From the NCBI GenBank assembly GCA_947492905.1, contig CANLOL010000001.1, forward strand, positions 2,210,578 to 2,274,577: 64,000 bases of DNA, given 5' to 3'. Below, piece after piece: positions 1,317-56,456 of this stretch. The stretch comes from an uncultured Sphingorhabdus sp. Its GTDB lineage: Bacteria > Pseudomonadota > Alphaproteobacteria > Sphingomonadales > Sphingomonadaceae. The translations under genes were made by a program, and so were the position numbers. Each line of letters begins with the position of its first letter. Within the stretch, counting starts at the first letter, position 1. Below the pieces are notes generated by a model. That model worked only from the letters and a program-made list of their open reading frames with translations, was not told where the DNA came from and did no database searches.

Positions 1317-1388
1317 GATCTTTTATCCCCAAATGTAAATGCATCATGTCATTGCCTTATGGGATCGTCAAATCATTATTGGCCTTTA

Positions 1389-3204: not shown

Positions 3205-3695
3205 TGAAACTATCATTTTTGATATTATTATTGGCCCCAATATCATTGGCGGCTTTGCACGCACAATCGACCAAAGATACGGCATCCGATATAGCCACGC
3301 AGCCAGCGCAAGATGTGAATGCTAAAAAAATAAAAATACCCGAAAAATTAAAAGATATTCAAAAAAAACCATACTCGCTTAAAAATTTAGACAGCTGCTC
3401 TGCACTGATAAAAGAGGTCAATGAATTGAGTGAATTGCTCGGCCCTGATCTTGATGAAAAAGTCGATAAAGAAGCTTCCAAAAAAAGGAAAGAAACCGCA
3501 AAACGAGTAGGCGGTTCCATCACTGGCAGTATCATTCCATTTCGCGGTATTGTGCGCGAAGTATCTGGCGCAGCAAAGGCGCAGCGAAAATATAATAAAG
3601 CTGTAACGGCGGGCATAACACGCAGAGCCTTCCTGAAGGGCGTTGGCCAAGAGCGCAAATGCGCTATTCCTGCACGCCCAACATCCGTTAAATAA
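3201..3695 (+). CDS. Secreted protein of unknown function
   Basis: I do not recognise this 164-residue protein. It begins with a signal peptide (cleavage near ALHA-QS, residue 22), then a Lys-rich linker and a short region with two cysteines. A Gly/Ile-rich stretch near residues 104-118 ([21 protein letters not shown]) could insert in or lie on a membrane. The ATG overlaps the stop of the metallopeptidase by four bases, so it probably shares that mRNA and perhaps that protein's work at the cell envelope. No catalytic motif is visible. Confidence 0.65.
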
Positions 3696-3709
3696 GTTAG
3701 AATCATCTA

Positions 3710-4858: not shown

Positions 4859-5575
4859 TATAGCCGCCCTTGACGCCAAACATAAATAGATAGCAAATAT
4901 CAGAGGGCACAAGATTAAAAAATCAGATGTTGTAACTACAGTCAAACCAGATATTAAAAATATTAATATGATCAAACCAAAGACAATCGAAACTATCCAT
5001 GATTTTAATGGTTTTTCATAATCCCATTCCCATAAACTCACTGGTAATGCGCCAAAATAAAATGATATTATAAAACCCATAATTATTGAGATTATTAAAA
5101 TTACCGGTAACGCCATTAAATTATAAAAAATGGGTATAGCTATACTGTCACTATGTATTGGAAACATATTTCTAACCAAGTCTAATTCTAAACCGAGGAT
5201 AATACCCACAGTAGTTCCAAGGCATATTGCTGTACCAATCATAAAATATTGCAATTTACTAGAGGGCGAACGCCACAAACTAATATTTTTATGACGATTA
5301 TTCGATAACCATGAATGCAAAGCTAATAATGTAAGAGATGTTATAATTAGAGACGATCCTAAATTAATAAAGTCATATCTATAGGTACGCAAACCATCAC
5401 GTTCTTTATGCCAATTAGCGCAATCACCTTGGCAGCCTGTTAAGAACAAATCAGCCGCCGCTTCAGCATCAGTAAATGCTGGCAATGCTCTACCATAAAT
5501 TATGGCACAAATTCCAATTACAATAAGCAACCTAAAGCAGATTGAAAATCTACTCTTAAGTCTTGTTTTCATCAA
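4844..5575 (-). CDS. Multi-pass membrane protein of unknown function, in the sdhCDA operon
   Basis: The 243-residue product has about six hydrophobic segments (roughly residues 11-30, 69-88, 110-130, 147-173, 192-213 and 216-236) and no motif I recognise. A Cys-containing loop ([18 protein letters not shown], about 46-63) probably faces the periplasm. The ATG overlaps the stop of sdhA by four bases, so it is expected to be cotranscribed with the succinate dehydrogenase genes and occupies the place where sdhB usually sits. It does not resemble an iron-sulfur subunit: the cysteine spacing of SdhB is absent. Its base composition is noticeably AT-rich compared with sdhA. Confidence 0.6.
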
Positions 5576-7383
5576 TAAACACGCTTCTTCGGTTTGATAT
5601 ATTCTGCATCATCGGTCAGTGTAAATTCATGGACTGGGCGATAGTCAATTTTGACTTTGCCATCTTTACCGCCCCAACCATCAAAATTAGCAATGGTATG
5701 TTTCATCCATTTTTTATCATCACGATCACCATAATCTTCATGCATATGTGCACCGCGGCTTTCTTTGCGATTTTCAGCACTATTCATGGTGCAAACCGCT
5801 TGGCCAAGAAGATTATCAAGCTCTAATGTTTCGATAAGATCGGTATTCCAAATTAATGAGGTATCGGTCACATGCACATCTTCCATGCGCTTATTAACCT
5901 TTTGCATCAAATCTTTGCCTTCGCTGAGCAGCGCATTATCGCGGAACACAGCACAATGTTTTTGCATTGTTTTTTGCATTTCCAAACGAATTTCAGCGGT
6001 TGGTGATCCGCCCTTCGCATTGCGGAAATGATCAATCCGCGCCAAAGACATATCCGCGCTATCTTTTGGTAGTGGCTGATGCGAAGTACCGGGTTTAATA
6101 GTCTCTTTAAGGCGCAAACCAGTAGCACGGCCAAATACGACTAAGTCGATTAAGCTATTAGAGCCCAAGCGGTTCGCACCATGTACCGATACGCAAGCGG
6201 CCTCGCCCACGGCATAGAGGCCAGGAACTGTTGCATCAGGATCTTTCTTGGTCGCCAATATTACTTCGCCATGATAATTGGTTGGAATACCGCCCATATT
6301 ATAGTGAACGGTTGGCACAACTGGGAGCGGTTGACGGGTCAGATCGCGACCTGCGAAAATTTTACCTGTCTCGGTAATACCAGGCAAACGCTCTGCTAAT
6401 ATGTCTTGGTCAATATGATCAAGGTGCAGATAAATATGGTCATTTTCTTTACCGACGCCGCGTCCTTCACGGATTTCGGTTGCCATGCAGCGCGATACAA
6501 CATCGCGGCTCGCCAAATCTTTGGCGGATGGCGCATAACGCTCCATGAAACGCTCGCCTTCGGAATTGGTCAAATAACCGCCCTCACCGCGCGCACCTTC
6601 CGTAATCAATACACCAGCGCCATAAATACCCGTTGGGTGGAATTGGACAAATTCCATATCTTGAAGCGCAATGCCCGCACGAAGAGCCATACCGCCACCA
6701 TCGCCGGTACAAGTATGCGCAGAGGTCGCTGAGAAATAGCAGCGGCCATAGCCGCCCGTTGCCAATGTCACTGCATGGCTGCGGAAACGATGGATAGAGC
6801 CATCTTCCATACACATAGCGATAACGCCTCGGCAGGCACCATCTTCCATGATGAGATCGATAGCGAAATATTCTACAAAGAAATCCGCATCATATTTTAA
6901 GCTTTGTTGATAGAGTGCATGGAGCATCGCATGGCCGGTCCTATCCGCAGCTGCACAAGTACGTTGCACCGGAGGGCCCTCGCCCATATTTTGCATATGA
7001 CCACCAAAAGGACGCTGATAAATAGTCCCATCATCATTACGTGAAAAGGGAACACCAGCATGTTCCAATTCATATACGGCTGCGGGTGCTTCGCGCACCA
7101 AATATTCAATCGCATCTTGATCGCCAAGCCAATCAGAACCTTTGACTGTATCAAACATATGCCATGACCAATGATCGGGCGTATTATTTCCCAAAGAAGC
7201 GGCAATACCGCCTTGAGCCGCCACGGTATGGCTGCGGGTTGGGAACACTTTGGTAATGCAAGCGGTTTTCAATCCTGCTTCTGCGCTACCCATAGTGGCA
7301 CGAAGACCAGAACCACCAGCGCCCACAACAACGGAGTCATAGGTATGGTCAATAATTTTATAGCTTGGTTGAGTATCCGACAT
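5572..7383 (-). CDS. sdhA: Succinate dehydrogenase flavoprotein subunit
   Basis: This 603-residue protein is the FAD-carrying subunit of respiratory complex II, which oxidises succinate to fumarate on the cytoplasmic face of the inner membrane. The ADP-binding motif [12 protein letters not shown] lies at about residues 19-30, the covalent FAD-binding His is in [10 protein letters not shown], and the active-site segments [13 protein letters not shown] and [13 protein letters not shown] are intact. The C-terminal [22 protein letters not shown] is typical of alphaproteobacterial and mitochondrial SdhA. It overlaps sdhD by one base (TAATG). The usual partner sdhB does not follow. Confidence 0.97.
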
Positions 7384-7772
7384 TAAGAAGCAACTCCCGT
7401 AAAGGCCAATTTAGCAACAACGAAAATACCAAAAATGGCACCAGCGAAGGCGTAGAAATTTAATAAGGTTAGAGCGATCAACCGAAGCGCAGTGTCAGGC
7501 ACATAATCCTCTATCATAACTTGCATACCCAATTTTAGATGCCAGAATATGCTGATAAGCATCAATATCATGGGTACGGCAACTGAAATTTGCGATAGCC
7601 AAGCGGCCAATGTTTCATGCTCATAATTGGTGAGCGTCAAAATGGAAAATAACAGCCATAATGTAAGCGTTAAATTCCCAAGAGCGGTTAGTCGCTGAAC
7701 GATCCAGTGATGCGAACCATGTTTAGCTGATCCAAGCCCTCGAACGCGGCCTATTCCTGTTCCTTGTCCCAT
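7383..7772 (-). CDS. sdhD: Succinate dehydrogenase membrane anchor subunit
   Basis: This 129-residue protein with three membrane helices matches the SdhD anchor of complex II. The N-terminal [22 protein letters not shown] holds the conserved region before the first helix. The haem-ligand region is [19 protein letters not shown], with the typical H-x-x-x-G-M-Q-V-x-x-E-D-Y pattern. It lies between sdhC (three-base gap) and sdhA (one-base overlap). With SdhC it anchors the flavoprotein arm and forms the haem b and ubiquinone sites. Confidence 0.93.
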
Positions 7773-7775
7773 GGA

Positions 7776-8180
7776 TTAACCCTCCAACATATTCGTAAAG
7801 ATATAAGCCCAGACAAGTCCTGTCGCAACGATTGCGCCAACAAATGTCATTATCGACCAGAATTTATTACCGGTTAATTCATAGCCTGCACCTGCATCCA
7901 TCACCAAATGGCGAATCCCGCCAAAAAGATGTTGAAAAAATGACCATGTAATGCCGACCAAAACGACATAACCTAGATAATAAAAATCAAACCAGCTTTT
8001 CAAATAATCCAAAGCCTCTGGCCCGGTTGAAACAGCGTATAGCCACCACAAAAGAACCAGCGCACCAACAGTTGCCAGCGCATTACCGACAATACGATTG
8101 ACTATGGAAACCAGCATAGCCGGCCCCCAGCGATATACGCCCAAATGCGGGGATAATGGTCTAGATTTATTTTGGCTCAT
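7776..8180 (-). CDS. sdhC: Succinate dehydrogenase cytochrome b556 subunit
   Basis: I choose the ATG at 8180 (MSQNKSRPLSPHLGVYRWG), because this is where family similarity begins; the frame is open for 17 more codons upstream. The product has 134 residues. The RPLSPHLxVYRW motif, the Ser/Arg quinone-site region (VSIVNRIVG) and the haem-ligand segment FFQHLFGGIRHLVMDAG are present, with three membrane helices. It is the first gene of sdhCDA. The spacer upstream is shared with the divergent SDR gene and should hold the operon promoter. Confidence 0.92.
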   Translation of the reverse strand: MSQNKSRPLSPHLGVYRWGPAMLVSIVNRIVGNALATVGALVLLWWLYAVSTGPEALDYLKSWFDFYYLGYVVLVGITWSFFQHLFGGIRHLVMDAGAGYELTGNKFWSIMTFVGAIVATGLVWAYIFTNMLEG

Positions 8181-8343
8181 AGCGAAGCTCATCCTGTAGA
8201 AAAATCTAATCAAACAAATGCTTTTCAGCAAATAATGAAACAGTCTTTAACCGATTGCCATAATGTTGCAAGTGGCCCTTAGCCTTTTTGCACAAATTTT
8301 TGTCTTTCGCCTGCTCTCTCTATCATTATTCTTTCAATTTATA

Positions 8344-8362
8344 CCAATCAGCCTATGATTGG
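8344..8362. promoter_or_regulatory. Inverted repeat directly before the SDR start codon
   Basis: CCAATCA and TGATTGG form a perfect seven-base inverted repeat around a five-base loop, ending three bases before the ATG at 8366. No Shine-Dalgarno sequence is visible, so in mRNA the hairpin would occlude the initiation region, or in DNA it could be an operator. Function is inference. Confidence 0.35.
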
Positions 8363-8365
8363 CAT

Positions 8366-9088
8366 ATGTCAAAATTAAATATAGTGATTACAGGGTCCAG
8401 CCGCGGTATTGGCAAAGCCATATATGATATGTTGGATCAAAAACAATGCCATATTGTCGGACATTCCAGCCGAGAATATGACACGCAACCCAATAATATT
8501 GTCTGCGATTTATCCCAAGATGAAGCAGCGCAAACTCTCTGGCAAAGTGCATTAGAGAGATGCGATGGGCGCATTGATGTTTTGATTAACAATGCAGGCA
8601 TTTTTGATCCCAATCCCATTGATGTAGATGATGATATTTGGACAGAGAATTGGCGCAAAACCATGACCATTAATTTGGATGCCGCAGCTCAATTGTGCCG
8701 CTTTGCCGTTAAGCATTGGCAGGATTCAAGACGCGAAGGACGTATCATTAATATCGCCAGCCGCGCAGCCTATCGAGGCGATTCTCCGCATCATTGGCAC
8801 TATGCTGCTTCAAAAGCGGGTATGGTGGCTATGACAAAAACCATTGCACGCGCTTATGCCAACCAGTCTATTTATGCTTTTGGGATTTGCCCTGGCTTTA
8901 CCATGACTGGCATGGCCGAAGATTATTTGGAAAGTCGTGGCGGGGATAAATTATTGGCTGATATTCCACTGGGCAAAGTGGCCGATCCAGATGAGATTGC
9001 TGAAATTGCTACATTTTGCGCGCTGAATGCACCGCCTTCTATGACAGGAAGCATATTGGATGCCAATGGCGCTAGCTATGTCCGATAA
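8366..9088 (+). CDS. Short-chain dehydrogenase/reductase
   Basis: The ATG at 8366 is chosen because MSKLNIVITGSSRGIGKA is the normal start of an SDR; the frame extends 26 codons further up without family similarity. The product is 240 residues, with the cofactor motif TGSSRGIG near residue 9, NNAGIFDPN, catalytic Ser in NIASRAAYRG and the YxxxK pair in HYAASKAGM. The ending TMTGMAEDYLESRGG...GSILDANGASYVR has the C-terminal layout of FabG-like SDRs. The substrate is unknown. The gene overlaps prmA by 11 bases, so the two are likely cotranscribed. Confidence 0.82.
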   Translation: MSKLNIVITGSSRGIGKAIYDMLDQKQCHIVGHSSREYDTQPNNIVCDLSQDEAAQTLWQSALERCDGRIDVLINNAGIFDPNPIDVDDDIWTENWRKTMTINLDAAAQLCRFAVKHWQDSRREGRIINIASRAAYRGDSPHHWHYAASKAGMVAMTKTIARAYANQSIYAFGICPGFTMTGMAEDYLESRGGDKLLADIPLGKVADPDEIAEIATFCALNAPPSMTGSILDANGASYVR

Positions 9089-10067
9089 TCAAATCGACCA
9101 TTATAAATTATCACTACCCTGCACACGGGCTGATGCTGAAACCATCAATATAAAGTTAGAGATTGATAATGAATGGACAGATAATTCACCAACGGTCGTG
9201 GCGCGGGAAACTATTGAATTTGATAATGATAGCTGGGTGATAGAAATATATCTAACCCAATTGCCAGATGACAGATTATATACAGATTTATCGCGATTAA
9301 TGGGTAGGCCGATAGATAGTGACATTCAAATCGACAAATTTATGGATGAAGATTGGGTCACGCTCAGTCAAAGCGGCCTAGAGCCTATCGCAATTGGTCA
9401 ATTTCATATCCATAATAGCCAACAACGCCCATTAGATGGCAAGACCAATATAGAAATTTCTGCTGGCCAAGCATTTGGCACGGGCCATCATTATACGACT
9501 TCGGGTTGTTTAGCTGCACTTAATAAGCTGCATCAGCAAGGACAGAGCTATTCTAATATTGCAGATATTGGCACTGGCACAGGGCTGCTGGCATTTGTCG
9601 CAAAAAAACTATGGCCTGACAGTGCAATTATGGCCAGCGATAGTGATCCTGTGGCGGTCGATTTTGCGATAAAAGCGGCCCAAGATAATCGTATATCTAC
9701 GGGCAGCGAAAGCAGCGAAATTTTAATGTTATGTGCATCTGGCACAGATCATGATACAATCCTTAATCGGGCCCCATATGATCTGGTGATTGCCAATATA
9801 TTGGCTGGCCCACTGATAGAGCTCGCCACTGCATTTCATCACATATTGGCCAAAGACGGTTTGTTAATATTAGCGGGGTTATTGGATAGCCAATTGAAGC
9901 AGGTGGTTGATGCTTATCAAACCATGCCTATGCAGCTCATAGAAAAAGATATGGAGAGCCATTGGCCCATATTGATTTTCAAAAAAACCGACGATTACAG
10001 AGAAGATTCAATAAATAAAACCAAAGGTCGCACTAGTCAAAAAGACGGCGATTATGGCGAGTGGTAA
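9078..10067 (+). CDS. prmA: Ribosomal protein L11 methyltransferase
   Basis: The ATG at 9078 (MSDNQIDHYKL) is preferred over one six codons upstream. PrmA methylates lysines and the N-terminus of ribosomal protein L11 with S-adenosylmethionine. The AdoMet site IADIGTGTGLLAFVAKKLWP, the acidic ASDSDPVAVDFA, and the PrmA-type NPPY-like motif IANILAGPLIELA are present, as is FGTGHHYTTSGCL just before the AdoMet domain. At 329 residues it is slightly longer than usual because of a hydrophilic tail (about residues 300-329) after ILIFKK. That tail is probably non-essential. Confidence 0.87.
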   Translation: MSDNQIDHYKLSLPCTRADAETINIKLEIDNEWTDNSPTVVARETIEFDNDSWVIEIYLTQLPDDRLYTDLSRLMGRPIDSDIQIDKFMDEDWVTLSQSGLEPIAIGQFHIHNSQQRPLDGKTNIEISAGQAFGTGHHYTTSGCLAALNKLHQQGQSYSNIADIGTGTGLLAFVAKKLWPDSAIMASDSDPVAVDFAIKAAQDNRISTGSESSEILMLCASGTDHDTILNRAPYDLVIANILAGPLIELATAFHHILAKDGLLILAGLLDSQLKQVVDAYQTMPMQLIEKDMESHWPILIFKKTDDYREDSINKTKGRTSQKDGDYGEW

Positions 10068-10113
10068 TGTTTACATTTTAAGCTTTTTTTCGTTTCTAAT
10101 AATTTTTCAGCAT

Positions 10114-10989
10114 TTATACCTTTTTTGCTTTATTTTGAGCATAATGCTGCGTCCCATGCGTCATAACACTATCGCTATCTATAATATCGGCAACGGCAAT
10201 ATCAGGCAGTGTTTTTAGCGTTTCATAAAGCGGAGCAAAATCGGTTTGCTGCGTAACTTCTAAGAGCTGTTTCAAATCATCAATGACAAAATAATTTTGC
10301 TGATAATCATCAATTCGATATTCGCTGCGCATGATACGCTCTAAATCAAATTTAATCCTATTGGGGCTATCATCATCCAGCGCAAAAACACTCTCACCAT
10401 AGCTAGACACAATACCAGCGCCATAAATACGCAAACCCTCTGCCTCTTGGATTAATCCAAATTCAACAGTGTACCAATATAGCCGTGCTAAATTTTTCAG
10501 CGCATCATATTTCAAAGAACGCAAACCGCCCTGCCCATAGGCCTGCATATAATCTGCAAATGTCTGATCGGCGAGCATAGGGACATGTCCAAAAACATCA
10601 TGGAAAACATCTGGCTCTTGTAAATAATCCAATTGGTCACGCTGCCTGATAAAATTACCCGACACAAAACGCCTATTGGCCAGATGATCAAAAAACACAT
10701 CATCAGGAACTAGGCCCGGCACAGCAACCACTTGCCATCCCGTCTTATCCATCAATATCGCATTCAGATCCTTAAAATCTGGGATTCCCGCCTTATCCAG
10801 TTTTAGTACATTCATGCCATCAATAAAGGCTTTGCATGCGCGTCCGGGTAGCATTTTATACTGCCGTTCAAACAATATATCCCAAGTCTCATGCTCATGA
10901 TCGGTAAATTTATCCCATGCTTGGTCTATCGTCCAATCATCATTTGCGCCTTCTGGAGGGCTATCAAAAATATGCGTTTCACTATTCAT
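10114..10989 (-). CDS. phhA: Phenylalanine 4-monooxygenase
   Basis: The start is set at the ATG at 10989 (MNSETHIFDSPPEG). The 291-residue product is a bacterial aromatic amino acid hydroxylase that converts phenylalanine to tyrosine with iron, tetrahydropterin and O2. The iron ligands His130 and His135 lie in PDVFHDVFGHVPML and Glu176 in YWYTVEFGLI, the classic facial triad. The N-terminal regulatory domain of animal enzymes is absent, as in other bacteria. No pterin carbinolamine dehydratase gene is nearby. Divergent to the DUF2459 gene with a 45-bp spacer. Confidence 0.93.
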   Translation of the reverse strand: MNSETHIFDSPPEGANDDWTIDQAWDKFTDHEHETWDILFERQYKMLPGRACKAFIDGMNVLKLDKAGIPDFKDLNAILMDKTGWQVVAVPGLVPDDVFFDHLANRRFVSGNFIRQRDQLDYLQEPDVFHDVFGHVPMLADQTFADYMQAYGQGGLRSLKYDALKNLARLYWYTVEFGLIQEAEGLRIYGAGIVSSYGESVFALDDDSPNRIKFDLERIMRSEYRIDDYQQNYFVIDDLKQLLEVTQQTDFAPLYETLKTLPDIAVADIIDSDSVMTHGTQHYAQNKAKKV

Positions 10990-46349: not shown

Positions 46350-46895
46350 TCAGGCTGTCTCTTTACAATAGTTGTTATGCAAAATTTTGCGTGCATAATG
46401 TAAACGCGATTTCACAGTGTTCTCAGGACAATTCATAGCTAATGCAATTTCACTGAGTGACATTTCTTCATAATAGAAAAATTGTACCGCTTCTCTTTGT
46501 TGAAGATTAAGATCGCTCAATGCGCTTATTAACCAATTGCGATCGCTTATCTGTGATTCCATTTCATCCACATTAACGATTTGATGGCTTTCCAAGTTAC
46601 CTAGCATAGATGATATATCGATTTTTATGCCTCCATATTTACGCAACCAATCCACTGCCTTATTGCGCACTATCCGCCGTAACCAACCAATATCATTACC
46701 CTGTTCTGAATAAACAGCAGCCTTCTTCCAAATATCCAAAAATGCATCATCGACAACATCTTCGGCGGCATTCAGGTCACCTGCTAATAAAGTAGCGGCA
46801 TAGCTAACCAGCCCTCTTCTTTGCAGTTTATAATATTGCGAAAAAGCATCTCTATCCCCTTTGCCGATTTTGCGCAAAACTTCTCTGTTACTCAT
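46350..46895 (-). CDS. RNA polymerase sigma factor, ECF type
   Basis: The 181-residue protein has sigma region 2 (about residues 20-85: VDDAFLDIWKKAAVYSEQGNDIGWLRRIVRNKAVDWLRK) and region 4 (about 125-177: ALSDLNLQQREAVQFFYYEEMSLSEIALAMNCPENTVKSRLHYARKIL), without sigma 1 or 3, so it is an ECF sigma factor. Its ATG overlaps the stop of the methyltransferase-like gene by four bases. No zinc-finger anti-sigma gene is adjacent on the strand. An anti-sigma-like membrane protein is encoded in the divergent operon (54151-54843), which I infer to be its partner. Confidence 0.88.
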   Translation of the reverse strand: MSNREVLRKIGKGDRDAFSQYYKLQRRGLVSYAATLLAGDLNAAEDVVDDAFLDIWKKAAVYSEQGNDIGWLRRIVRNKAVDWLRKYGGIKIDISSMLGNLESHQIVNVDEMESQISDRNWLISALSDLNLQQREAVQFFYYEEMSLSEIALAMNCPENTVKSRLHYARKILHNNYCKETA

Positions 46896-47749
46896 GGTAT
46901 CACTCCCCCCTGATAATACTGAACACCCTGTTTAAATTCGCCCCAATTGAGGCTGCCGCTGGCATCTTGAAATTGCGAAAGAACAAGCCCTGCTGCGACA
47001 GCACTTTCCAATAATTTACTTTGAGAATGGCATTTGATGACATGATATTCGCACACTCTATTCCAACCTGCGCCGGCATGATTTTCCAAGAATGTGGATA
47101 TATTCAATCGCCCTTTTGGAGCCAGAATCTGTGCAACCATTATGATAAAATCGTCCAACGCATCATCATCCCAATGATCGGCAATGGACGGGGCAATTAT
47201 CCGATCGAATTTATGACCAGCAGAGATAATATTGGATAAAATGTCTGCTACACTCTGACGATCGGGCAAGTGAATAATAGCGCCATCATCCTGTATCGTT
47301 GTGGGTAATTCCCCGACATTATATAATGGAGTCAGAGCGGCTTGATGGATGAAAATATCATTTGGCGGGGCAACTATATCGCCTAACAAACAGATTGTTT
47401 CGCCGCTTTTATAGGCATTTTCTATTACAGAATTACAAAGTTTCCAACGCTCCGATTTAGCTCTATTATGTGCCAAGCCAGCCATAGCGATGTGCATTTT
47501 TTGCGCCGTTGAGGAAACACATTCATCAAAAGAACCGATAGTGATGGCTCTTGATACTCCGCCCTCTCGCAAGAAATCTGCTATTGGGTGGTCAAAGAGA
47601 ATAGTTTTTAAATAGGCCTCATCATAACCAGCTGCTATTGCGCCGTCCAACACTCCAGCTAGCGAAATTATCGCATTGTTAAAATTTGCGGATTCCATTT
47701 CCAACAGCAATTGGTCGAATATCTGATAAAGGTGAATTTCACTGTTCAT
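46892..47749 (-). CDS. Methyltransferase-like protein of unknown function
   Basis: The 285-residue protein has no recognised family match in my reading. The C-terminal half resembles a degenerate class I methyltransferase: ETICLLGDIV (motif I place, glycines incomplete), then KFDRIIAPSIADHWDDDALDDFIIMVAQILAPKGRLNIS for motifs IV-V. The N-terminal half (about 1-110) is helical with several His and Cys residues. It is cotranscribed with the ECF sigma gene (ATGA overlap) and divergent to the TPR regulator. Methyl transfer is a guess; it could bind AdoMet or a related ligand only. Confidence 0.55.
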   Translation of the reverse strand: MNSEIHLYQIFDQLLLEMESANFNNAIISLAGVLDGAIAAGYDEAYLKTILFDHPIADFLREGGVSRAITIGSFDECVSSTAQKMHIAMAGLAHNRAKSERWKLCNSVIENAYKSGETICLLGDIVAPPNDIFIHQAALTPLYNVGELPTTIQDDGAIIHLPDRQSVADILSNIISAGHKFDRIIAPSIADHWDDDALDDFIIMVAQILAPKGRLNISTFLENHAGAGWNRVCEYHVIKCHSQSKLLESAVAAGLVLSQFQDASGSLNWGEFKQGVQYYQGGVIP

Positions 47750-47779: not shown

Positions 47780-47810
47780 AATGTGAAATATGCGTTCCAA
47801 TAATGTGAAA
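47780..47810. promoter_or_regulatory. Direct repeat AATGTGAAA in the divergent promoter region
   Basis: Two identical nine-base copies (47780-47788 and 47802-47810) lie 22 bases apart, two helical turns on one DNA face, in the 125-bp spacer between the methyltransferase-like gene and the regulator gene. Tandem direct repeats with such spacing suit OmpR- or SARP-type winged-helix regulators such as the one encoded next to it. Binding is inferred. Confidence 0.4.
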
Positions 47811-47874
47811 AATATAGTGATTTTTGAATTAAATATGTTAGCCTTCAGTCATATTGTAGGGGGCAATATGAATT

Positions 47875-49536
47875 TTGCACAATGATGGGGTCTATAAATT
47901 GACGCTGGTTGGGCCATTCCGTTTGGAAGGGCCAGATGGCTCACGGATTGAAATTCGCAGCAAACGCGGACAAGCGCTTGTCGCTATGCTTGCGATTGCA
48001 AAAGATGGCGAACATAGCAGGCCATGGTTACAAGAGAGGCTATGGGGATCGCGCAGCCCCGAACAAGCCAATTCAAGCTTGCGAAAAGAATTATCCAACA
48101 TCAGAAAAATTCTAAACAAGGACGATATTACTATCTTGGATGCCGATAATGGCCGTGTCTGGCTTGACCTAGAACATATTGATATTGATGTGCGCCAGGT
48201 TTTGAACGATAATCATGATGAATTGCTCGAAGGATTGGATATTGCCGGAGAAGATAGTTTTGAAGAATGGCTACGATTAGAGAGGAATGCACTAAAAGCA
48301 AGGCAACCCCCTATGGCGATGAAGCCTTATAACACTGATGATTTTGTCAATTTAGAACAATTTTCTCAAAAGCCAGCGATTGCGATACTACCTTTCAAAA
48401 CGATAGAAGATGAACCAGCCTTGCAACATATGGCGCATGGGTTAAGCGAAGATCTGATCGATAGATTATCCCGTTTGCGATGGCTACCCGTTATAGCACG
48501 TAGTTCTAGTTTTGCTGTGCAAGAGGGTGACACGCAAAATATAGCGCGAAAACTGGGAGCGCAATATATTGTCGAAGGCACTCTGCGCCGAGAGAAAGAC
48601 AAATATATATTATTAGCTATGCTAAATGATGCCAGAAACGGACAATCGATTTGGTCTCAAAAAATTGAATTGCCTTTAGAGAGTGAAACAATAGCTTTGG
48701 AAATATTGATCGCGGAAATCAGCTCTGCATTGGGAACACAGGTTGATCTGCAAGAGCAGAATAAAGCACAGCGCAAACCGCAAAGCGATTTGAACGTGAA
48801 TGAAATCATTTGGCGTGGACGATGGCATTTGAATACATTAACACCAGAGGGGTTTCAGGAAGCTGAAAAATGTTTTGATGAAGCCCTGTCCAAAGAACCC
48901 CATTCCCCCGAAGCATTAATACAGCGCACATGGGCTGCGCTATGGCAACAATGGTTTACCCGCGGATCAGAATCCGATATTCGTACGGTTCGCAAAATGG
49001 CGCAAAAAGCGATTATCGCCGATTATGATGATGCGCGCGGGCACATGCTAGCAGGTATTGCAGAAAGCTGGCTGCATCAACCTTTGCGGTCACAAGCATT
49101 GTTAGAACGGGCATTAGAGCTTAATCCCAGCCTTGCTTTTGCTTATGCCCAATTGGGCAGCACATTATATTTAAACGGTAAACCCAACCAAGCGCTCGAA
49201 AGCATTGATTTTGCAATCCGGCTTAGCCCGAACGATCAGCATCTTTTCTACTTTTTGGGCGAACGTGCCATCTCCAATTTATTATTGGGTGAGTATGAAC
49301 AGTCAATTGCCGACTCTGATGCATCCATCATGCGGCGTAATGCTTTTTGGTATAGCCATGTGATTAAAATAAACGCCTTGGTACGCCAACAAAAAGTGAT
49401 CGATGCCAAACATGCATTGCAAGAATTATATACCGCATATCCAAAATTTAAAGATCATTATATTGATTGGATCCCCTTTGTGGATAGCAGTTGGAATGAT
49501 TTTTTAAAGGAGGGCTTGAACCTTTCGCGCCAATAA
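47875..49536 (+). CDS. Winged-helix regulator with TolB-like and TPR domains
   Basis: The 553-residue protein has an OmpR/SARP-like winged helix (about residues 8-100: KLTLVGPFRLEGPDGSRIEIRSKRGQALVAMLA, LWGSRSPEQANSSLRKELSNIRKIL). A FlgO/TolB-N-like domain (about 162-285: AIAILPFKTIEDEPALQHMAHGLSEDLIDRLSRLRWLPVIARSS) and TPR repeats (about 300-540) follow. This architecture is common in alphaproteobacterial transcription regulators. The start is uncertain: TTG at 47875 is in frame, while an ATG with a good AGGGGG site (47868) is one base out of frame. It begins the operon with the P450-peroxidase, 34 bases downstream. Confidence 0.8.
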   Translation: MHNDGVYKLTLVGPFRLEGPDGSRIEIRSKRGQALVAMLAIAKDGEHSRPWLQERLWGSRSPEQANSSLRKELSNIRKILNKDDITILDADNGRVWLDLEHIDIDVRQVLNDNHDELLEGLDIAGEDSFEEWLRLERNALKARQPPMAMKPYNTDDFVNLEQFSQKPAIAILPFKTIEDEPALQHMAHGLSEDLIDRLSRLRWLPVIARSSSFAVQEGDTQNIARKLGAQYIVEGTLRREKDKYILLAMLNDARNGQSIWSQKIELPLESETIALEILIAEISSALGTQVDLQEQNKAQRKPQSDLNVNEIIWRGRWHLNTLTPEGFQEAEKCFDEALSKEPHSPEALIQRTWAALWQQWFTRGSESDIRTVRKMAQKAIIADYDDARGHMLAGIAESWLHQPLRSQALLERALELNPSLAFAYAQLGSTLYLNGKPNQALESIDFAIRLSPNDQHLFYFLGERAISNLLLGEYEQSIADSDASIMRRNAFWYSHVIKINALVRQQKVIDAKHALQELYTAYPKFKDHYIDWIPFVDSSWNDFLKEGLNLSRQ

Positions 49537-49570: not shown

Positions 49571-52500
49571 ATGCCGCAATCGAAATATTTTGATACAATA
49601 ATGGCCGCAATCGCAAAAGATGCTGATTATCCTAATGGCCAACTCCAGCCTTTTGATTTTAAGAGCCTAGCTTCAAACGGCATGATAGCAAAGCTAAAAA
49701 GTCGCGCAATACAACCTGCGATCAAAATACTATATCGCGGTGCACGGGCTTTCTTTCCTATATTCAACTTCAACGGTTTCACTCATGTTGTGCGTGATAG
49801 CGAGGTACGGCAGATACTATCTCGACCTATGGATTTTCAAGTCCCATTTGGACCAGAGATGAAAGAATTAGCTGGTGGTGCAACCTTTGTTCTTGGCTTA
49901 GAAGGTGAAGAACAATCACGTCAAAATACATTGATACGCAAAATAATATTACCCTCAGATGTTGAACGCATATTAAACCTAACCCGCAAATTTGGTGAAG
50001 CTTTGCTGGAAAATAGCGCTGGCGAAATCGATGCGATGAATGATTATATCAAACGGGTAATTAGCGAGACCTGTATCCGCTATTTTGGCTTTTCTACTGA
50101 TCAAGCCGATGAATTTGCTGATTGGACAATCTCTAGCTCAGCGATATTATTTGCTGATCCTTTTGGTGACCCTAAGATACGTAAATTAGCGCTAAATGGT
50201 TCAGTCCGCCTGTGCGCTTTAATCGATGATTCAGTAGCCCGCATAAAAACTACCAAATCATATAATGCAGTATTTGATTTTAATGAAGCCACATTGATAG
50301 AGAGATTGTTGTTTTTGCAAGAACAGCAAAAAGATAGTGACCCAATCTCACATGCAGAAATCAGAGCAATTCTATATGGTTTGGCCACAGGTTTCATTCC
50401 TACAAATGGATTGGCCGGCGGTAAAATATTAGAAGAATTGGTCAGACGTCCAGATGCATTAAAAATGGCAATTACTGCCGCCAGAAATGATGACCGTGAT
50501 GCTTTGCGTAAGATCGTATTAGAGGCTGGCCGACTTAACCCAGCATTGTCCCCAGGGCAGTGGAGATATTGCCCCAAAGATACATATATTGAAGTTGGAA
50601 ATAGCAAAAAAACCATCAAAGCAGGAACATTGCTGCTTATATCCACAATGTCGGCGATGCGTGACAGAAGGGCCTATCCAAAACCATATGATTTTTGGCC
50701 AGATCGCGTCGATGCATCGGGGCAATGGGTAGAACCTGATCTTATTTTTGGTAGCGGTGTTCATGAATGTATTGGCAAATATTTAGCAACTGAACAAATT
50801 ACTGAGTCACTGAGGGTTTTACTCTCGCAAAATAAAATTCGCCCTGCTGGGAAAAAAGGTCGGATGCAGTCTATAGGTATTTTTCCGCGGCATTTGGATA
50901 TGGTGTATGAAACACCATCATCCACTCAATCAATGTTTATTGTTCTAGCTGATATTATGGATGGCATTAACAAAGAGCAGGCAGATGCAAATCTATCTCA
51001 ATTGGGGCATCCTGCCGATAAAGCCATCCAAGTAGCTTTAGATAAGACGGACATTGTTCATTTTGCTTCGCTTTCTAGTATCGCAACGGAAAAAGGGCTG
51101 AAGCTTGCATTTGAATTGAGCGTAGATGGTGAAGCCGCCGATGCCTTGTCTAAAATTTCCGTAATTGCTCATGATTATTTGAGACCTGCATTTGAAATGG
51201 CGGGTTTGACCGATGAAGAAAATTTATATGATTTTATGATAGCGCGTATCGTTAACCTGCATTTAAAACCATGGGGCGCAACGGGAATTAATTATAATGG
51301 ATTAAGCGAATTTCCAATCCTCAAAGTCAAGAAACAAAGACGCTTCTCTGAGTTTGCAGGACGCGTGCTGCGGAATTATGTGACCACAGAAACTGCGCGA
51401 GGCAATCATCCCACGCTGATATTATCACATTTCCGACGTATATTGCGACAAGATATAGCGTTAAAAGCGCAAGCAACATCAGAGCAATTGTCATTGATGC
51501 AAGAGGCGCAAGATGAGGGATATGATGCATTTTATCTCACTACTGAGAAAATGCGTCTGAAACTCACTGCCTATCGAGAAAAAAGCCACTTTGAAAAAGC
51601 GATCCAATATTTTCAATCGAGTGACTTTCGCCCTTATCTCTTATCCTTTTTTGGCATGACAACATTATCTACTATATTGTTCTGGCCAGCCATTGGCGGA
51701 TCAATTTTTGCTAAGATCTTGATTGTGCCCTTATTAGCACTACTCTCTGTTATTGCTGTTCTTTTAACAGGTTTTGCAATATTCATAGCAATATTACGCT
51801 ATCATGAACGCAAAGATAAGCCCTTTGAACATAAAGCTCCTTTATCAAAATTACGCGCCATAATGGAAGGCGAAAACCATTCCGGTTATGAACAAAATCA
51901 TGTGATGGCGGTAGGGCAATTGAAAGCTGGTATATTCCGAAAACTGATCCACGCATTATCTTTATGGATGATTGGAATGTCAGTAAAACACTGGTTTAGA
52001 AAAGGCTTGGTTAATCATATGGGCAGCATTCATTATGCCCGATGGTGGCGTATCCCAGGAACAAATTCTGTCTCATTTTATTCTAATTTTGATGGCAGCT
52101 GGGAAAATTATTTGGAAGATTTCATCATGCGCAATCGTTGGGGGCAAAGCGCAGGCTGGAGCAATTGGCAGGGTTTTCCCGAAACACGCTATTTGGTTAT
52201 GGGCGGTGCAGCTGATGCCAATGGTTTTAAAAAATGGGTGCGTATCGTTCAACAAATTGCGCCTTTTTGGTATTCACGATTCCCCGATATTACCACCGAC
52301 AGAATTCGCAGCAATGCCATAGTGCATATTGGAGCTGGATTAGCCGAATCCTCGACCGAAGCAGAGGAATGGCTTCGCTGTTTTGGCTCTATGCCGCGCA
52401 TTGAGAATCGGGTTGAAAGCGACGAGGTGCAAGCATTGGTTTTTCGCGGTATGAAGAACTTACCCTATTCAAAATGCTTATCCATAAAATTACCAAAGGA

Positions 52501-54154
52501 TAGGTCAGACTTAGGAGAATGGCTTTGCTGGATACGCGGCAAAGCTATGCGCGCTGAAGGCTTAATTCCCAATGGTGATGAAGACGCAATTGCACTATTA
52601 ATCGCTGAAGGAATTTTGGTACCTGTGCCGCGTCCCGAGGGTCAAGAAGATGAATATGCACTAGCCCATTCTATGACCATCACATTTGGCGATAGGCCCT
52701 TAGATGGAGGGAAATCTTGTAGAGATGCAAACAATGATTGCCCTTCGCAGCGCGATGCAAAAGCATCTATGACACAAGCCCTTATTTTCGGCTTATCGGC
52801 TGCTGGAATAGCAAAATTCAACACATCAAATAGCAATGCAAAACCGCTCGAAAACTATTTCCCAGAATCTTTTCAAATGGGCATGGCAGGACGTAGCCGT
52901 ATATTGGGCGACGTTGGCGTGAATGATCCAAAGCATTGGCGATGGAATGATGATATTCGCAATGACAATGCGTCCGAAGCGGTTTTGATGCTCTATGCTA
53001 GTGATACCACATCATTAGAACGAATGCTGCAAACCCATATTGCATTATTAGAAAATCATGGTGGATCATTCATATCACAAACAAACTGCGCACCTGCTTG
53101 GCATGATAACGAAAAAGCTAATTTTGAGCATTTTGGCTATCGTGATGGTATCTCCCAGCCCGTGATAAAAGGAAGCAGCCGAAGCATGAAAGGTGTTCCA
53201 GAGCGCGATATATTAGAGGCTGGAGAATTCATAATGGGTTATCCCGATAGTATGGGTCATTATCCAGCATCACCTTTATTGTCCCCAGAGGCAGATATGG
53301 GCGGCGCCTTACCAGTCATGATCGATGATAATTTGTCCAAATATCCTGATTTTGGAGATAAAAGTTTAACCGATGTCCCACGTGATTTGGGCCGTAATGG
53401 AAGTTTTTTAGTTATCCGTGAATTAAAGCAAGATGTAGAAGGGTTTGAGAATTTTGTTCAAAGCACAGCCGAAAAACTCAACAGCGGTTCCTTAACAGAT
53501 TTATATAAAGTTGTCGGCCAAAACCCAGATACAGAATGGGTGAAAGCCAAATTAATGGGCCGCTGGACCAATGGTCGTCCGATGATTGATAATCCAGTTT
53601 TCAAACCTTCAAATGCTAATACTCTGCTTGCTGAGACGGAAAATGATTTCAGCTATGGAGAGGATGACCCCCAAGGGTTAGCCTGTCCCTTTGGATCACA
53701 TATCCGCCGCACCAACCCGCGTGATAGCAAATTGCCAGGCGATAAAGGAGCATTGGAAATATCCAATAGACATCGCATTTTGCGACGCGGACGCCCCTAT
53801 AGTGATTCACAATCGGGCGAGAAAGGCTTACTGTTTGCTTGTTTTTGCGCTGATATTAATCGACAATTTGAATTTGTGCAGCAATTTTGGTCCAATGCTC
53901 CATCATTTCATGGCCTTAAAAATGAACCTGATCCGATCATTGGTTCATGTCCTATAAGTGCTCATGATGGTGAAACCAAAGACCGTGTTTTCACCATCCC
54001 AACAGCAGCAGGCCCTTTACAAATCGAGGGGTTAAAGAATTTTGTGCAAATGATGGGCGGTGGCTATTTCTTTGTGCCCAGCAAATCCGCACTCAGTTGG
54101 CTATCTGATACCGCACTTCATTCCCACACTATAGAAAATGAGGACCCATCATGA
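49571..54154 (+). CDS. Cytochrome P450 - DyP peroxidase fusion with a membrane segment
   Basis: The 1527-residue protein joins two haem enzymes. Residues 1-445 are a P450: ExxR at Glu318-Arg321 (EAGR) and the haem-Cys motif FGSGVHECIG with Cys400. The I-helix (268-290, ATGFIPTNGLAGG) lacks the acid-Thr pair used for O2 activation. A segment at 455-560 and one at 815-1000 (HYARWW, SNFDGSWENYLEDF) look like two related ferredoxin-like domains, with two membrane helices between (about 696-743). Residues 1040-1510 are a DyP-type peroxidase: distal Asp1192 in GYRDGISQP, haem-ligand His1377 in CPFGSHIRRTNPR, Arg1405-Arg1406 in ILRRGRPY. AGGAG lies five bases before the ATG, and the stop overlaps the next gene (ATGA). 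The substrates are unknown. Confidence 0.85.
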   Translation: MPQSKYFDTIMAAIAKDADYPNGQLQPFDFKSLASNGMIAKLKSRAIQPAIKILYRGARAFFPIFNFNGFTHVVRDSEVRQILSRPMDFQVPFGPEMKELAGGATFVLGLEGEEQSRQNTLIRKIILPSDVERILNLTRKFGEALLENSAGEIDAMNDYIKRVISETCIRYFGFSTDQADEFADWTISSSAILFADPFGDPKIRKLALNGSVRLCALIDDSVARIKTTKSYNAVFDFNEATLIERLLFLQEQQKDSDPISHAEIRAILYGLATGFIPTNGLAGGKILEELVRRPDALKMAITAARNDDRDALRKIVLEAGRLNPALSPGQWRYCPKDTYIEVGNSKKTIKAGTLLLISTMSAMRDRRAYPKPYDFWPDRVDASGQWVEPDLIFGSGVHECIGKYLATEQITESLRVLLSQNKIRPAGKKGRMQSIGIFPRHLDMVYETPSSTQSMFIVLADIMDGINKEQADANLSQLGHPADKAIQVALDKTDIVHFASLSSIATEKGLKLAFELSVDGEAADALSKISVIAHDYLRPAFEMAGLTDEENLYDFMIARIVNLHLKPWGATGINYNGLSEFPILKVKKQRRFSEFAGRVLRNYVTTETARGNHPTLILSHFRRILRQDIALKAQATSEQLSLMQEAQDEGYDAFYLTTEKMRLKLTAYREKSHFEKAIQYFQSSDFRPYLLSFFGMTTLSTILFWPAIGGSIFAKILIVPLLALLSVIAVLLTGFAIFIAILRYHERKDKPFEHKAPLSKLRAIMEGENHSGYEQNHVMAVGQLKAGIFRKLIHALSLWMIGMSVKHWFRKGLVNHMGSIHYARWWRIPGTNSVSFYSNFDGSWENYLEDFIMRNRWGQSAGWSNWQGFPETRYLVMGGAADANGFKKWVRIVQQIAPFWYSRFPDITTDRIRSNAIVHIGAGLAESSTEAEEWLRCFGSMPRIENRVESDEVQALVFRGMKNLPYSKCLSIKLPKDRSDLGEWLCWIRGKAMRAEGLIPNGDEDAIALLIAEGILVPVPRPEGQEDEYALAHSMTITFGDRPLDGGKSCRDANNDCPSQRDAKASMTQALIFGLSAAGIAKFNTSNSNAKPLENYFPESFQMGMAGRSRILGDVGVNDPKHWRWNDDIRNDNASEAVLMLYASDTTSLERMLQTHIALLENHGGSFISQTNCAPAWHDNEKANFEHFGYRDGISQPVIKGSSRSMKGVPERDILEAGEFIMGYPDSMGHYPASPLLSPEADMGGALPVMIDDNLSKYPDFGDKSLTDVPRDLGRNGSFLVIRELKQDVEGFENFVQSTAEKLNSGSLTDLYKVVGQNPDTEWVKAKLMGRWTNGRPMIDNPVFKPSNANTLLAETENDFSYGEDDPQGLACPFGSHIRRTNPRDSKLPGDKGALEISNRHRILRRGRPYSDSQSGEKGLLFACFCADINRQFEFVQQFWSNAPSFHGLKNEPDPIIGSCPISAHDGETKDRVFTIPTAAGPLQIEGLKNFVQMMGGGYFFVPSKSALSWLSDTALHSHTIENEDPS

Positions 54155-54843
54155 GCAAGGATGATTTTAGAGCACTTGAAGCCATGCTTCCCCAATATGT
54201 TAATGGTACGTTATCGACCGCAGATAGCGCACGTATTGATACAGCATTAGAGACATCATCTGATTTGCGTAATTCCCTAAGTAAAGAGAGAATAGTGCAA
54301 CAGAAAATCAAAAATGGCTTAGATAATATAACAGAAGAAAGCGAAAAAAATACCGATACCAGGTTGGAGGCTTTAATGGAAAAGACAAAAACCACTCCCC
54401 AAGAAAATAATGATCAAAACACCGATACAGCTAATAAAAATGATGAAAAACAATCATCTCTCACGGCAGCACTTTCCATATTAAATCCGCGTAGATGGCA
54501 TCCAGCTATGGCTCTTTCTTTGGCAATCGCATTACCAGCACAAGCATTGATAATTGGTGGTCAAGCAGCAACCATTGCTTCTTTAGAAGATGAAAATTTC
54601 CGCCTTGCATCTGGACCATGCAAAGACGAAAATATTAAAGGCGGAATATTGTTAGAATTTGTAGATGGCTCTTCTTGGCAAGATATTGCAAACTTGCTGG
54701 ATGAACAGGAACTTGCCATTTTCAAACAAGGCGGTTTTGGCGCACTCAATGTGCGTAGCAAAAAAGAAGGGCATGCATTAACATCGCAAATAGATGCGTT
54801 ACGAACATCGCCATTGGTGAACAGCGCAGAGCCTATTGGATGA
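54151..54843 (+). CDS. Membrane anti-sigma-like protein with subtilase-propeptide-like domain
   Basis: The 230-residue protein has an N-terminal cytoplasmic part (1-105) starting DFRALEAMLPQYVNGTLSTADSARIDTALETSSDLRNSL, a layout seen in anti-sigma factors without a Cys/His zinc motif. One membrane helix is at about 118-140. The periplasmic part (163-229), GGILLEFVDGSSWQDIANLLDEQ...FGALNVRSKKEGHALTSQIDALRTSPLVNSAEP, has the pattern of the propeptides of subtilisin-like proteases. The gene is translationally coupled to the P450-peroxidase and to the subtilase that follows. The anti-sigma role and its partner (the ECF factor at 46350-46895) are inferred from architecture and neighbourhood. Confidence 0.6.
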   Translation: MSKDDFRALEAMLPQYVNGTLSTADSARIDTALETSSDLRNSLSKERIVQQKIKNGLDNITEESEKNTDTRLEALMEKTKTTPQENNDQNTDTANKNDEKQSSLTAALSILNPRRWHPAMALSLAIALPAQALIIGGQAATIASLEDENFRLASGPCKDENIKGGILLEFVDGSSWQDIANLLDEQELAIFKQGGFGALNVRSKKEGHALTSQIDALRTSPLVNSAEPIG

Positions 54844-56456
54844 AAAACCATATAATCACAGCGAGTTTGATGGGATTATTGCTATTACCGCAATTGAGTG
54901 CTCAAGATCGCTCACGCTTCCAAATTGACCTAAATAAGGCGAAAGACAAAGCTAAAAAAGCTGAAGAGCTACTTAGCGATATAATCCCAAATAAAAATGA
55001 CAAAACGCCTAAAGATGATAAGCGACCTAGGGATGAAAATGCCGCTGAAGACAATCAAGCAGCTATAGAAAATAAATCTTCTATAGATGATTCCCCCTCT
55101 AAAACTGACCCCCAAAAAGAGAGACCTACAAAAGTTCAACCCCCTAAAGAACCATCCCCCAAAATTCCGAATACTAATACTGATAACTCGCCAATAGAAA
55201 TGATCGATGCCGATATTCCAAAATATGTATCGCGCCAAATTCTCTATTTCTCCAAAGCATCGCGCGCGGAGTTACAATTGATTGCGCATACCAATAATAT
55301 TGGCATCTTGGATATCGTGACATTAGATCAGATTGGGATATCAATGGTGCTAGGCATAATAGAAACCAATGATAATATTCAAAATGTCATACGCCGCATA
55401 AAGACACAAGAAGATGTAATCTGGTCACAGCCCAACCATTATTTTCAACTGCTAAACCAAGGATCAAATAGGCCAAAATCAGCCAGTACAACATCACGCG
55501 AGAAAGGGTTATCTTTGCATGGTATAATAAGCAGCTCATCGCAAAAGAATGGCACTATATTAATGATAGATAGCGCGGTCGATACGAACCATATATCCCT
55601 CAAAAATACAGATATTACGCAAAGCCTATATGGATCAAAAGGGATGCCCGATGCACATGGAACCGCTATTGCTGAATTATTGATCGGTGAAGGAGATTAT
55701 GGTGGAGTGGCAGCAGGAAGCAAACTTATTAGCTTGGCTGCATTTGAACCAACACAAAAGAATATATGGCTTTCTCAAACATTCCATTTGGCACGCGCAT
55801 TAAACGAAGCCGTGCGCCTACGTCCAAATGTGATAAACTTGTCTTTTGGTTCCAATTATGATGATCTTATTCTATCAATGCTGCTGAATAAAATGGAAGA
55901 AAAAGGCATTTGTATTGTATCAGCCGCCGGCAATGGTAACGGCGGAAAAGTCTTATTCCCCGCACGTCATAAAAACACATTGGCTATTACAGCAGTGGAT
56001 GGTCGCAAACGTATTTACAAATATGCATCAAAAGGGCCAGAGGTCGATATCGCTGCGTGGGGTGTGGATATGAATGCTGCTGTACCCAATGGGCGGCGCA
56101 CCGTGTCGGGAACATCCTTTGCAACAGCGATAGTTTCGGGATCATTGATGCAATTAGATGCTTGTAATGAAAACAGAAAACCCTCTAACATGCGAAAAAT
56201 AGTAACACAATATGCGCAAGATTTAGGCGATACAGGCCGAGATACTATTTTTGGTTATGGTTTGTTCCGTCTTGATAAATCGCAGGATGCTATAGTATCC
56301 ATGTCTATCAACCAGAACGAAGTATTAAAATCAAAAACAATGTCTCAAGAGGATTCAAAGTCGAATCTGTTATATTATCTATGGGGTATTGGCGTGCTTT
56401 GCCTAATTTTATTATTTGGATGGCACCGCCGTAAAAAATCTAAAGCAGCGCATTAA
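54840..56456 (+). CDS. Membrane-anchored subtilisin-like serine protease (S8)
   Basis: The 538-residue protein has a signal peptide (residues 1-21), a Lys/Pro/Asp-rich linker (about 30-120), a propeptide-like domain (about 128-205), and an S8 catalytic domain with Asp244 (MIDSAVD), His273 (DAHGTA), the oxyanion Asn365 (AAGNGNGG) and Ser426 (SGTSFATA). One C-terminal helix (510-528) followed by HRRKKSK anchors it, so the protease faces the periplasm. ATGA overlap with the anti-sigma-like gene. I infer it may cleave that neighbour's propeptide-like domain. Confidence 0.88.
   Translation: MKNHIITASLMGLLLLPQLSAQDRSRFQIDLNKAKDKAKKAEELLSDIIPNKNDKTPKDDKRPRDENAAEDNQAAIENKSSIDDSPSKTDPQKERPTKVQPPKEPSPKIPNTNTDNSPIEMIDADIPKYVSRQILYFSKASRAELQLIAHTNNIGILDIVTLDQIGISMVLGIIETNDNIQNVIRRIKTQEDVIWSQPNHYFQLLNQGSNRPKSASTTSREKGLSLHGIISSSSQKNGTILMIDSAVDTNHISLKNTDITQSLYGSKGMPDAHGTAIAELLIGEGDYGGVAAGSKLISLAAFEPTQKNIWLSQTFHLARALNEAVRLRPNVINLSFGSNYDDLILSMLLNKMEEKGICIVSAAGNGNGGKVLFPARHKNTLAITAVDGRKRIYKYASKGPEVDIAAWGVDMNAAVPNGRRTVSGTSFATAIVSGSLMQLDACNENRKPSNMRKIVTQYAQDLGDTGRDTIFGYGLFRLDKSQDAIVSMSINQNEVLKSKTMSQEDSKSNLLYYLWGIGVLCLILLFGWHRRKKSKAAH

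Follow-up and report, generated by a model that had tools for sequence, protein, structure and literature searches.

The region at positions 49571 to 54154 of a 64,000-nucleotide stretch from an uncultured Sphingorhabdus sp. (assembly GCA_947492905.1, contig CANLOL010000001.1, positions 2,210,578 to 2,274,577; the whole stretch is called the window here) raises the question of whether a cytochrome P450 and a DyP-type peroxidase encoded in one frame form a genuine enzyme and, if so, what such an enzyme would do. The region is a single open frame of 1527 codons with zero internal stops. A first-pass annotation of the bare sequence had described it as a P450 joined to a DyP peroxidase through two ferredoxin-like domains and a pair of membrane helices. 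Its features are as follows.

49571..54154, forward strand: P450 - domain A - membrane hairpin - domain B - DyP fusion, 1527 residues
49571..50905, forward strand: P450 domain, residues 1-445
50399-50404, forward strand: P277-T278 of the I-helix GFIPTN
50522-50533, forward strand: P450 ExxR
50768-50770, forward strand: haem Cys400 of the P450
50906..51640, forward strand: domain A, residues 446-690, related to domain B
51059-51061, forward strand: His497 of domain A, invariant in 39/39 aligned middle regions
51641..51799, forward strand: predicted two-helix membrane hairpin, about residues 691-743
51800..52450, forward strand: domain B, residues 744-960, the best-conserved part
52031-52033, forward strand: His821 of domain B
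52796..54130, forward strand: DyP domain, residues 1076-1520
53135-53149, forward strand: GYRDG of the DyP domain
53699-53701, forward strand: His1377 of the DyP domain
53774-53776, forward strand: Arg1402 of the DyP domain
53783-53785, forward strand: Arg1405 of the DyP domain

Both haem domains were recovered in this intact frame above the Pfam cut-offs, p450 on residues 258-420 (38.7 bits, cut-off 22.8) and Dyp_perox_C on residues 1398-1440 (37.7 bits, cut-off 20); the NCBIfam model TIGR01413 (Dyp) matched residues 1169-1507 with 97.9 bits, slightly below its cut-off of 100.5. Sequence matches in the PDB were P450s from residue 140 on (best E value of 1e-5) and DyPs over residues 1270-1513 (best E value of 1e-42), so that Pfam and the PDB sequences agreed in returning P450 for the N-terminal half and DyP for the C-terminal half, as had been claimed. 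The motif positions given in the first-pass annotation (ExxR at 318-321, Cys400, GYRDG at 1189-1193 and His1377) were exact, and E318, R321, C400, G1189, D1192, G1193 and H1377 were invariant in all 12 aligned fusion proteins. Mean column identity was 63% for domain B, 53% for the P450, 51% for domain A and 46% for the DyP domain.

The possibility that a sequencing error had joined two genes was rejected, since 20 distinct intact genes have the identical domain order in one frame. These are the window gene, L001, L003, L004, L005, L007-L010, L013-L015, L120-L125, L163 and L164 (L numbers denote loci), the last eight (L120-L125, L163, L164) coming from additional genomes. The count leaves aside L079 (the same as L001), L002 and L080 (in-frame stop), L006 (gene cut by the contig end) and further Sulfitobacter plasmids, and L139-L142, on contigs equal in length to those of L003, L004, L008 and L010, were taken as the same genes as these. 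In all 20 fusions the ExxR and Cys of the P450 and the His of the DyP domain are intact; the Cys lies in the haem-thiolate motif FGSGVHECIG, and it and the ExxR are conserved in the 8 fusions outside the 12-row alignment as well as within it. The remaining relatives come from other Sphingomonadales, one Hyphomicrobiales genome, Novosphingobium aromaticivorans pNL2, Pararhizobium plasmids and Sulfitobacter plasmids; in N. aromaticivorans DSM 12444 the fusion is SARO_RS19865. It is an accessory locus: of 41 genomes sampled from the window's genus, three have it, one of these with an in-frame stop. L002 and L080 hold a close relative of the fusion in which the stop interrupts domain A (540 + 927 residues).

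What lies between the haem domains was examined by profile comparison, which indicates that domains A and B (together, the ab domains) are a related, uncharacterised pair around a predicted membrane hairpin. Profiles of the two separated regions (446-690 and 744-960) gave a probability of 97 and a score of 74, and 20 column-shuffled control profiles scored at most 16.6; an earlier comparison, built from 12 sequences, had given little signal (probability 1.9), and a value of 1e-34 from iterated profiles was not used because those profiles mix A and B members. A conserved His is present in each ab domain. Neither gave a PDB sequence match at E values up to 1, and the Pfam scan of the whole fusion protein returned nothing within domain A. 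Domain B likewise lacked a credible Pfam match: among 12 members, a single one hit Pectate_lyase22, at 0.016, and nothing else. Thus two mutually homologous domains are present where the annotation placed two ferredoxin-like domains, and the fold label is putative. Homology of the ab domains to DyP was also considered and discarded, no relation being detected in the profile comparisons.

The hairpin of this protein has one strong helix at 724-742, and its first helix was not separate at the threshold used; most relatives show two hydrophobic segments in this region. The annotated helix pair therefore holds for its second member; as only that segment is strong here, the prediction of a hairpin depends on the related proteins. 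Lysine and arginine totals around the hairpin in 12 fusions were 35 before, 10 in the loop and 43 after, as counted by a script that picked two hydrophobic segments per protein by construction. By the positive-inside rule this distribution puts both haem domains in the cytoplasm, and the P450 and DyP domains are thus likely both cytoplasm-facing, in line with the annotation's view that they share one side of the membrane. A single helix instead of a hairpin would place them on opposite sides.

Does the fusion stand alone, or does it belong to something larger? Domain B was used as a probe on overlapping samples of genomes of the class, order and phylum and matched in 10 of 385, 46 of 396 and 24 of 398 genomes, respectively. 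The matches comprise 74 genomes and 76 loci, and the surroundings of all were examined. At 76/76 loci a DyP is encoded in the same open reading frame (ORF) as the ab gene or at most 109 bases from it. The remaining partner is a P450 at 49 loci and a catalase-family protein at 18, with both at none and neither at nine, as seen in fetched stretches of at most about 17 kb, less at contig ends (6 kb for L138). An earlier census of 75 loci had given P450 at 47, catalase type at 14, both at 0 and neither at 14; the revision added divergent P450s (L113, L145), Pfam-Catalase proteins (L156, L158, L159) and locus L174, and replaced L165 by the longer L175. A Fisher value for the revised census was not used because the loci share ancestry. 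The fusion therefore belongs, as one variant, to a broader ab-DyP-(P450 or catalase-like) system that elsewhere consists of separate genes, a larger gene system absent from the first-pass annotation.

The DyP is the constant element of this system. Equivalents of H1377, R1402 and R1405 were found in 75/75 loci, and that of Asp1192 in the GxxDG motif in 74, with a gap in one; at the last position of the motif, 61 loci keep Gly, whereas 11 have Ser, 2 have Ala and 1 has a gap. One of Arg1402 and Arg1405 is the putative distal Arg. Gene arrangement varies: four-gene P450-ab-ab-DyP loci (L088, L089, L090, L161, L162) are reordered in L091, L092 and L094, three-gene loci (ab-ab, DyP, P450) include L104, L115, L116 and L146-L149, ab-ab-DyP occupies a single ORF at 10/75 loci, and the full fusion accounts for 13/75. 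L136 has a 1007-residue DyP-P450 ORF at 710-3733 (reverse strand) with reversed domain order, an independent fusion. The P450 is very divergent at six of the 49 P450 loci (L111, L113, L114, L143-L145), and the one scanned (L145) reached 21.5 against the Pfam cut-off of 22.8. At L111, L113 and L114 a large regulator lies beside the ab-ab-DyP protein, that of L114 being a cyclase-AAA protein. Two Rhizobium ab-ab-DyP proteins without a P450 (L017, L018) adjoin a DNA/RNA non-specific endonuclease gene, and a RoxA-like cytochrome c gene was observed near the ab-DyP pair without P450 or catalase at L165/L175.

A DyP tree of 75 rows placed the full fusions and the ab-ab-DyP proteins on one branch (23 rows, support 99/98), within which two changes are required to account for the full fusion. 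For the 14 loci labelled catalase-type at that stage the tree requires three, at least two of them forced, so partner exchange occurred more than once; L166, L136, L127, L138 and L106 form long branches. Outside the census, the ab profile also matched annotated operons in Rhodococcus koreensis (ab, peroxidase, 'catalase family protein'), Rhizobium rosettiformans (peroxidase, ab, 'catalase family peroxidase') and Granulicella (ab, ab, dyp-type peroxidase, with no adjoining P450 or catalase-like gene), the last followed by genes for a TonB-dependent receptor (siderophores, by annotation) and a Fur-type regulator, and by katG. In this analysis the ab system turned up in Proteobacteria and also on plasmids of one Acidobacterium and one Actinobacterium.

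We next consider how the P450 might be driven. The acid-alcohol pair of helix I typical of O2-activating P450s is replaced by P277-T278 in the fusion. Across 43 aligned rows (42 proteins, one row being the second fragment of L136), 38 have Pro at the acid site and 2 have Asp (L112, L138), with Ala, Gly or a gap in 1 each, and the position after it carries Thr in 32 rows and Gln in 9; the P450 loci L108, L111, L114, L143 and L144 fell below the cut-off for this count. The other P450s of the same genome and genus that could be aligned at this site read Asp-Thr or Glu-Thr. Pfam and NCBIfam scans matched no reductase or ferredoxin domain in the fusion protein, and no Fer2 gene lies near the locus, flavodoxin-type partners not having been searched for; the four Fer2 proteins of the genome are all distant, the nearest about 195 kb away. 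CYP152 peroxygenases have Arg-Pro in helix I, where the fusion has IPTN, and nothing named CYP152 is among the 60 of 477 PDB matches listed for the P450 profile. The CYP74 clan is characterised, according to PMC8124189, by an I-helix groove with Asn and an insertion at the haem-binding loop. GFIPTN includes Asn279, and nothing named CYP74 is among the same listed matches.

For the alternative partner, a profile of nine catalase-like proteins matched catalases in the PDB (best 2j2m, 2e-6) and also 3e4w (2e-6), 1u5u (1e-5) and 3dy5 (2e-4). The last two are allene oxide synthase (AOS)-lipoxygenase chains; 3e4w we take to be the mycobacterial protein MAP-2744c, presumably grouped with the catalase-related AOS and hydroperoxide lyase (HPL) proteins. 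Pfam Catalase matched 4 of the 9, and R-x3-Y is retained. Phospholipase or cyclooxygenase-type genes occur beside some loci: a patatin-like phospholipase gene adjoins the P450 in the four-gene operons L089, L090, L161 and L162 (checked with Pfam for L090 and assigned from similarity for the other three), and animal-haem-peroxidase genes lie beside three catalase-type loci. L126, for example, has at 2679-10890 an ab-ab gene, a 900-residue DyP-catalase-like ORF, a second catalase-like gene and a 1008-residue animal-haem-peroxidase (PF03098) gene. According to PMC13049297, thromboxane and prostacyclin synthase require no electron transport chain, the P450 partners of fungal fatty-acid dioxygenases are termed self-sufficient, and the product of a Nostoc dioxygenase is cut by a separate catalase-related HPL. 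Catalase-related AOS and HPL are also described in PMC5617202, and the three sources (PMC13049297, PMC5617202, PMC8124189) have reductase-free P450s and catalase-related proteins isomerising or cleaving fatty-acid hydroperoxides.

Because P450 and catalase-family proteins alternate beside a constant DyP, with patatin and animal-peroxidase neighbours, we regard a peroxide-handling membrane assembly as the best reading. Tentatively, the fusion may be a cytoplasm-facing, membrane-bound di-haem enzyme that processes peroxides or (lipid) hydroperoxides without a reductase. Both domains would be loaded with haem, and the P450 would split an O-O bond rather than use O2 and a reductase, either rearranging a hydroperoxide or hydroxylating with a hydroperoxide or H2O2. 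The DyP domain would use peroxide on this intermediate or on the one before it, and the intermediate might pass between the sites. The two ab domains and the hairpin would tether the two haem sites to the membrane, within reach of a lipid or another hydrophobic substrate. The annotation's idea of peroxide-driven chemistry on a lipid has become likelier through the P450/catalase alternation, the loss of the I-helix acid and the patatin or animal-haem-peroxidase neighbours at 7/75 loci, and remains a suggestion. A more far-reaching version, which we consider doubtful, is that the system might be an independently evolved bacterial counterpart of the cyclooxygenase/oxylipin cascade, a single membrane assembly making oxidised-lipid signals from a DyP, a membrane-held ab pair and an exchangeable O-O-splitting haem partner, all fused in the window's lineage; that partner, with the same doubt, would be a P450 lacking the O2-activating acid or a catalase-related protein. 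In this version the ab domains, in each of which a His is conserved, might bind the substrate or possibly an additional haem.

Several observations weigh against the peroxide-handling reading. Nine of the 76 loci have neither partner in the stretch read, and the distal His position is variable among the catalase-like proteins. Patatin and animal peroxidase were each probed with one protein (from L090 and L126, respectively) across 75 loci, L174 excepted; only 7 loci were hit, and neither the window nor any full fusion was among them. Asp is kept at the acid site in the two rows named above, the L108 P450, outside that count, reads Asp-Thr, and L166, one of the 38 Pro rows, sits in a poorly aligned stretch. 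The 60 of 477 PDB matches listed for the P450 profile are mostly bacterial monooxygenases, and the closest of them is EryK, which has Ile aligned at the acid site. EryK is an O2-using monooxygenase, so the loss of the acid is a hint, not proof, of peroxide use. Genes for a transferrin-binding protein-like protein and a surface lipoprotein assembly modifier (both annotated) follow the Sulfitobacter fusion of L015 (14053-16490), and these, like the receptor and Fur-type regulator genes of the Granulicella operon, would suit a role in iron handling.

The neighbouring genes in the window bear on regulation.

46350..46895, reverse strand: extracytoplasmic function (ECF) sigma factor, divergent
46892..47749, reverse strand: 285-residue protein without a Pfam match, adjoining the ECF sigma gene
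47805..47820, forward strand: direct repeat GTGAAAA-N5-GTGA upstream of the tetratricopeptide repeat (TPR) regulator
47875..49536, forward strand: TPR regulator (a relative is publicly annotated as SARP family)
54151..54843, forward strand: anti-sigma-factor-like protein with one membrane segment; matches weak, all under curated cut-offs
54840..56456, forward strand: S8 subtilase with a C-terminal membrane segment

The TPR regulator gene is found upstream of the fusion in 20/20 cases, as two overlapping frames in L005. In eight of the 20 (window, L001, L003, L004, L005, L008, L009, L010) a divergent ECF sigma gene and a gene for an anti-sigma-like protein are present too. The subtilase is found with seven of these eight (the L005 contig stops before that position) and the 285-residue companion with six of the 20; together these genes look like a regulated-proteolysis signalling set. 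The other 12 fusions have the regulator without the sigma set, some of them in the window's own family (L120-L122). The direct repeat is the single match in the window (0.07 expected), its spacing is about one helical turn, and inspection by eye of eight intergenic regions, the window's included, showed the pattern in five, with a spacer of N4 or N5, making it a possible autoregulatory site. A search of the eight divergent intergenic regions with a regular expression for ECF-type promoters gave one hit (L009) of doubtful worth. A role in anti-phage defence was also considered and is unsupported: in a test of 10 proteins against PADLOC models, the fusion, the regulator and the P450, ab, DyP and catalase-like relatives were all without a match, the only matches being a generic one to the subtilase and a weak one to the sigma factor.

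Other explanations must be set against the peroxide-handling reading. The fusion could be a conventional O2-dependent P450 monooxygenase served by a distant ferredoxin, in which DyP clears peroxide from uncoupling and so protects the P450 and the membrane. The resemblance of the P450 profile to bacterial monooxygenases, with EryK also lacking the acid, the retention of Thr278 and of Thr in most rows, and the four Fer2 proteins encoded in the genome are consistent with this. However, it leaves unexplained why a catalase-family protein takes the P450's place at 18 loci with DyP constant, and why Pro occupies the acid site in most rows, and the Pro-Gln form (9 rows) has neither the acid nor the Thr; we consider it unlikely. 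DyPs are known for aromatic substrates, and soil or hydrocarbon isolates carry several of the homologues on large plasmids, which would suit oxidative breakdown or tailoring of an aromatic or secondary metabolite, where DyP would oxidise a phenol that the P450 modifies. The conserved neighbours (regulator, sigma factor, anti-sigma-like protein and subtilase) include no aromatic-degradation enzyme, however, and the fusions have a hydrophobic hairpin, making this quite improbable.

That the haem enzyme makes or removes a peroxide or membrane-stress signal read by the adjoining ECF sigma, anti-sigma-like and subtilase genes is suggested by the sigma set at eight fusions, by a TPR or cyclase-TPR regulator at all 20 and by the genes after the Granulicella ab-ab-DyP operon. 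The 12 fusions without the sigma set, including those of the window's own family, speak against it and we consider it very unlikely, although it is compatible with the peroxide-handling reading and fits alongside rather than opposing it. Least probable of all, and only barely credible to us, is haem or iron handling, with the ab domains as haem carriers and DyP acting like a deferrochelatase. The conserved His of each ab domain and the iron-related genes beside the Sulfitobacter and Granulicella loci argue for it, but no annotated haem or iron uptake gene was seen in the stretches examined of the other annotated relatives, and the P450/catalase alternation would go unexplained.

The first-pass annotation had stated that a fusion of this order was not known to it, and our full-text literature search, with subscription papers and preprints outside its scope, likewise found no title or abstract opening describing a P450-DyP fusion or gene pair, nor anything on DyP with oxylipins. 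The fusion is a new variant among haem-protein fusion enzymes, P450 plus DyP with ab domains, and the separate neighbouring genes of its relatives point to an undescribed peroxide-using enzyme team. It would add an independently evolved natural haem-protein fusion beside the dioxygenase-cytochrome P450 (DOX-CYP) and catalase-lipoxygenase ones, and a P450 family that peroxide may drive and that has a peroxidase built in. As a marker for locating the system the ab domains are useful, and the P450/catalase exchange predicts that both partners act on the same peroxide class.

Among known systems, the self-sufficient fusions CYP102 and CYP116B likewise hold a P450 system in one polypeptide; they carry a reductase, whereas no reductase domain was matched here. 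DyP peroxidases (8re3, 7anv 'D-type', DyP2, Alr1585) share the GxxDG motif, the proximal His and a conserved Arg with the fusion, but the matched DyP chains, at 411-493 residues, are too short for such a fusion. Catalase-related AOS and HPL proteins (coral AOS-lipoxygenase, the partner of Nostoc 10S-DOX) have a counterpart in the catalase-family proteins, mostly of this remote type, in the P450's place; the window protein differs in having a P450, and the partner at these loci is DyP, with an animal-haem-peroxidase gene at three. The fungal DOX-CYP fusions (linoleate diol, allene oxide and epoxy alcohol synthases) likewise join a peroxidase-type haem domain to a P450 in one polypeptide, as described in PMC13049297. 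Unlike these, the fusion here has two ab domains and a membrane hairpin between its haem domains, and it gave no PF03098 match. In DOX-CYP the first haem domain, the dioxygenase, is of the peroxidase-cyclooxygenase superfamily and precedes the P450, whereas here a DyP follows it. The fusion is not a DOX-CYP member, because its peroxidase domain belongs to a different superfamily and comes after the P450; the two appear analogous, not homologous as a whole, and may work alike.

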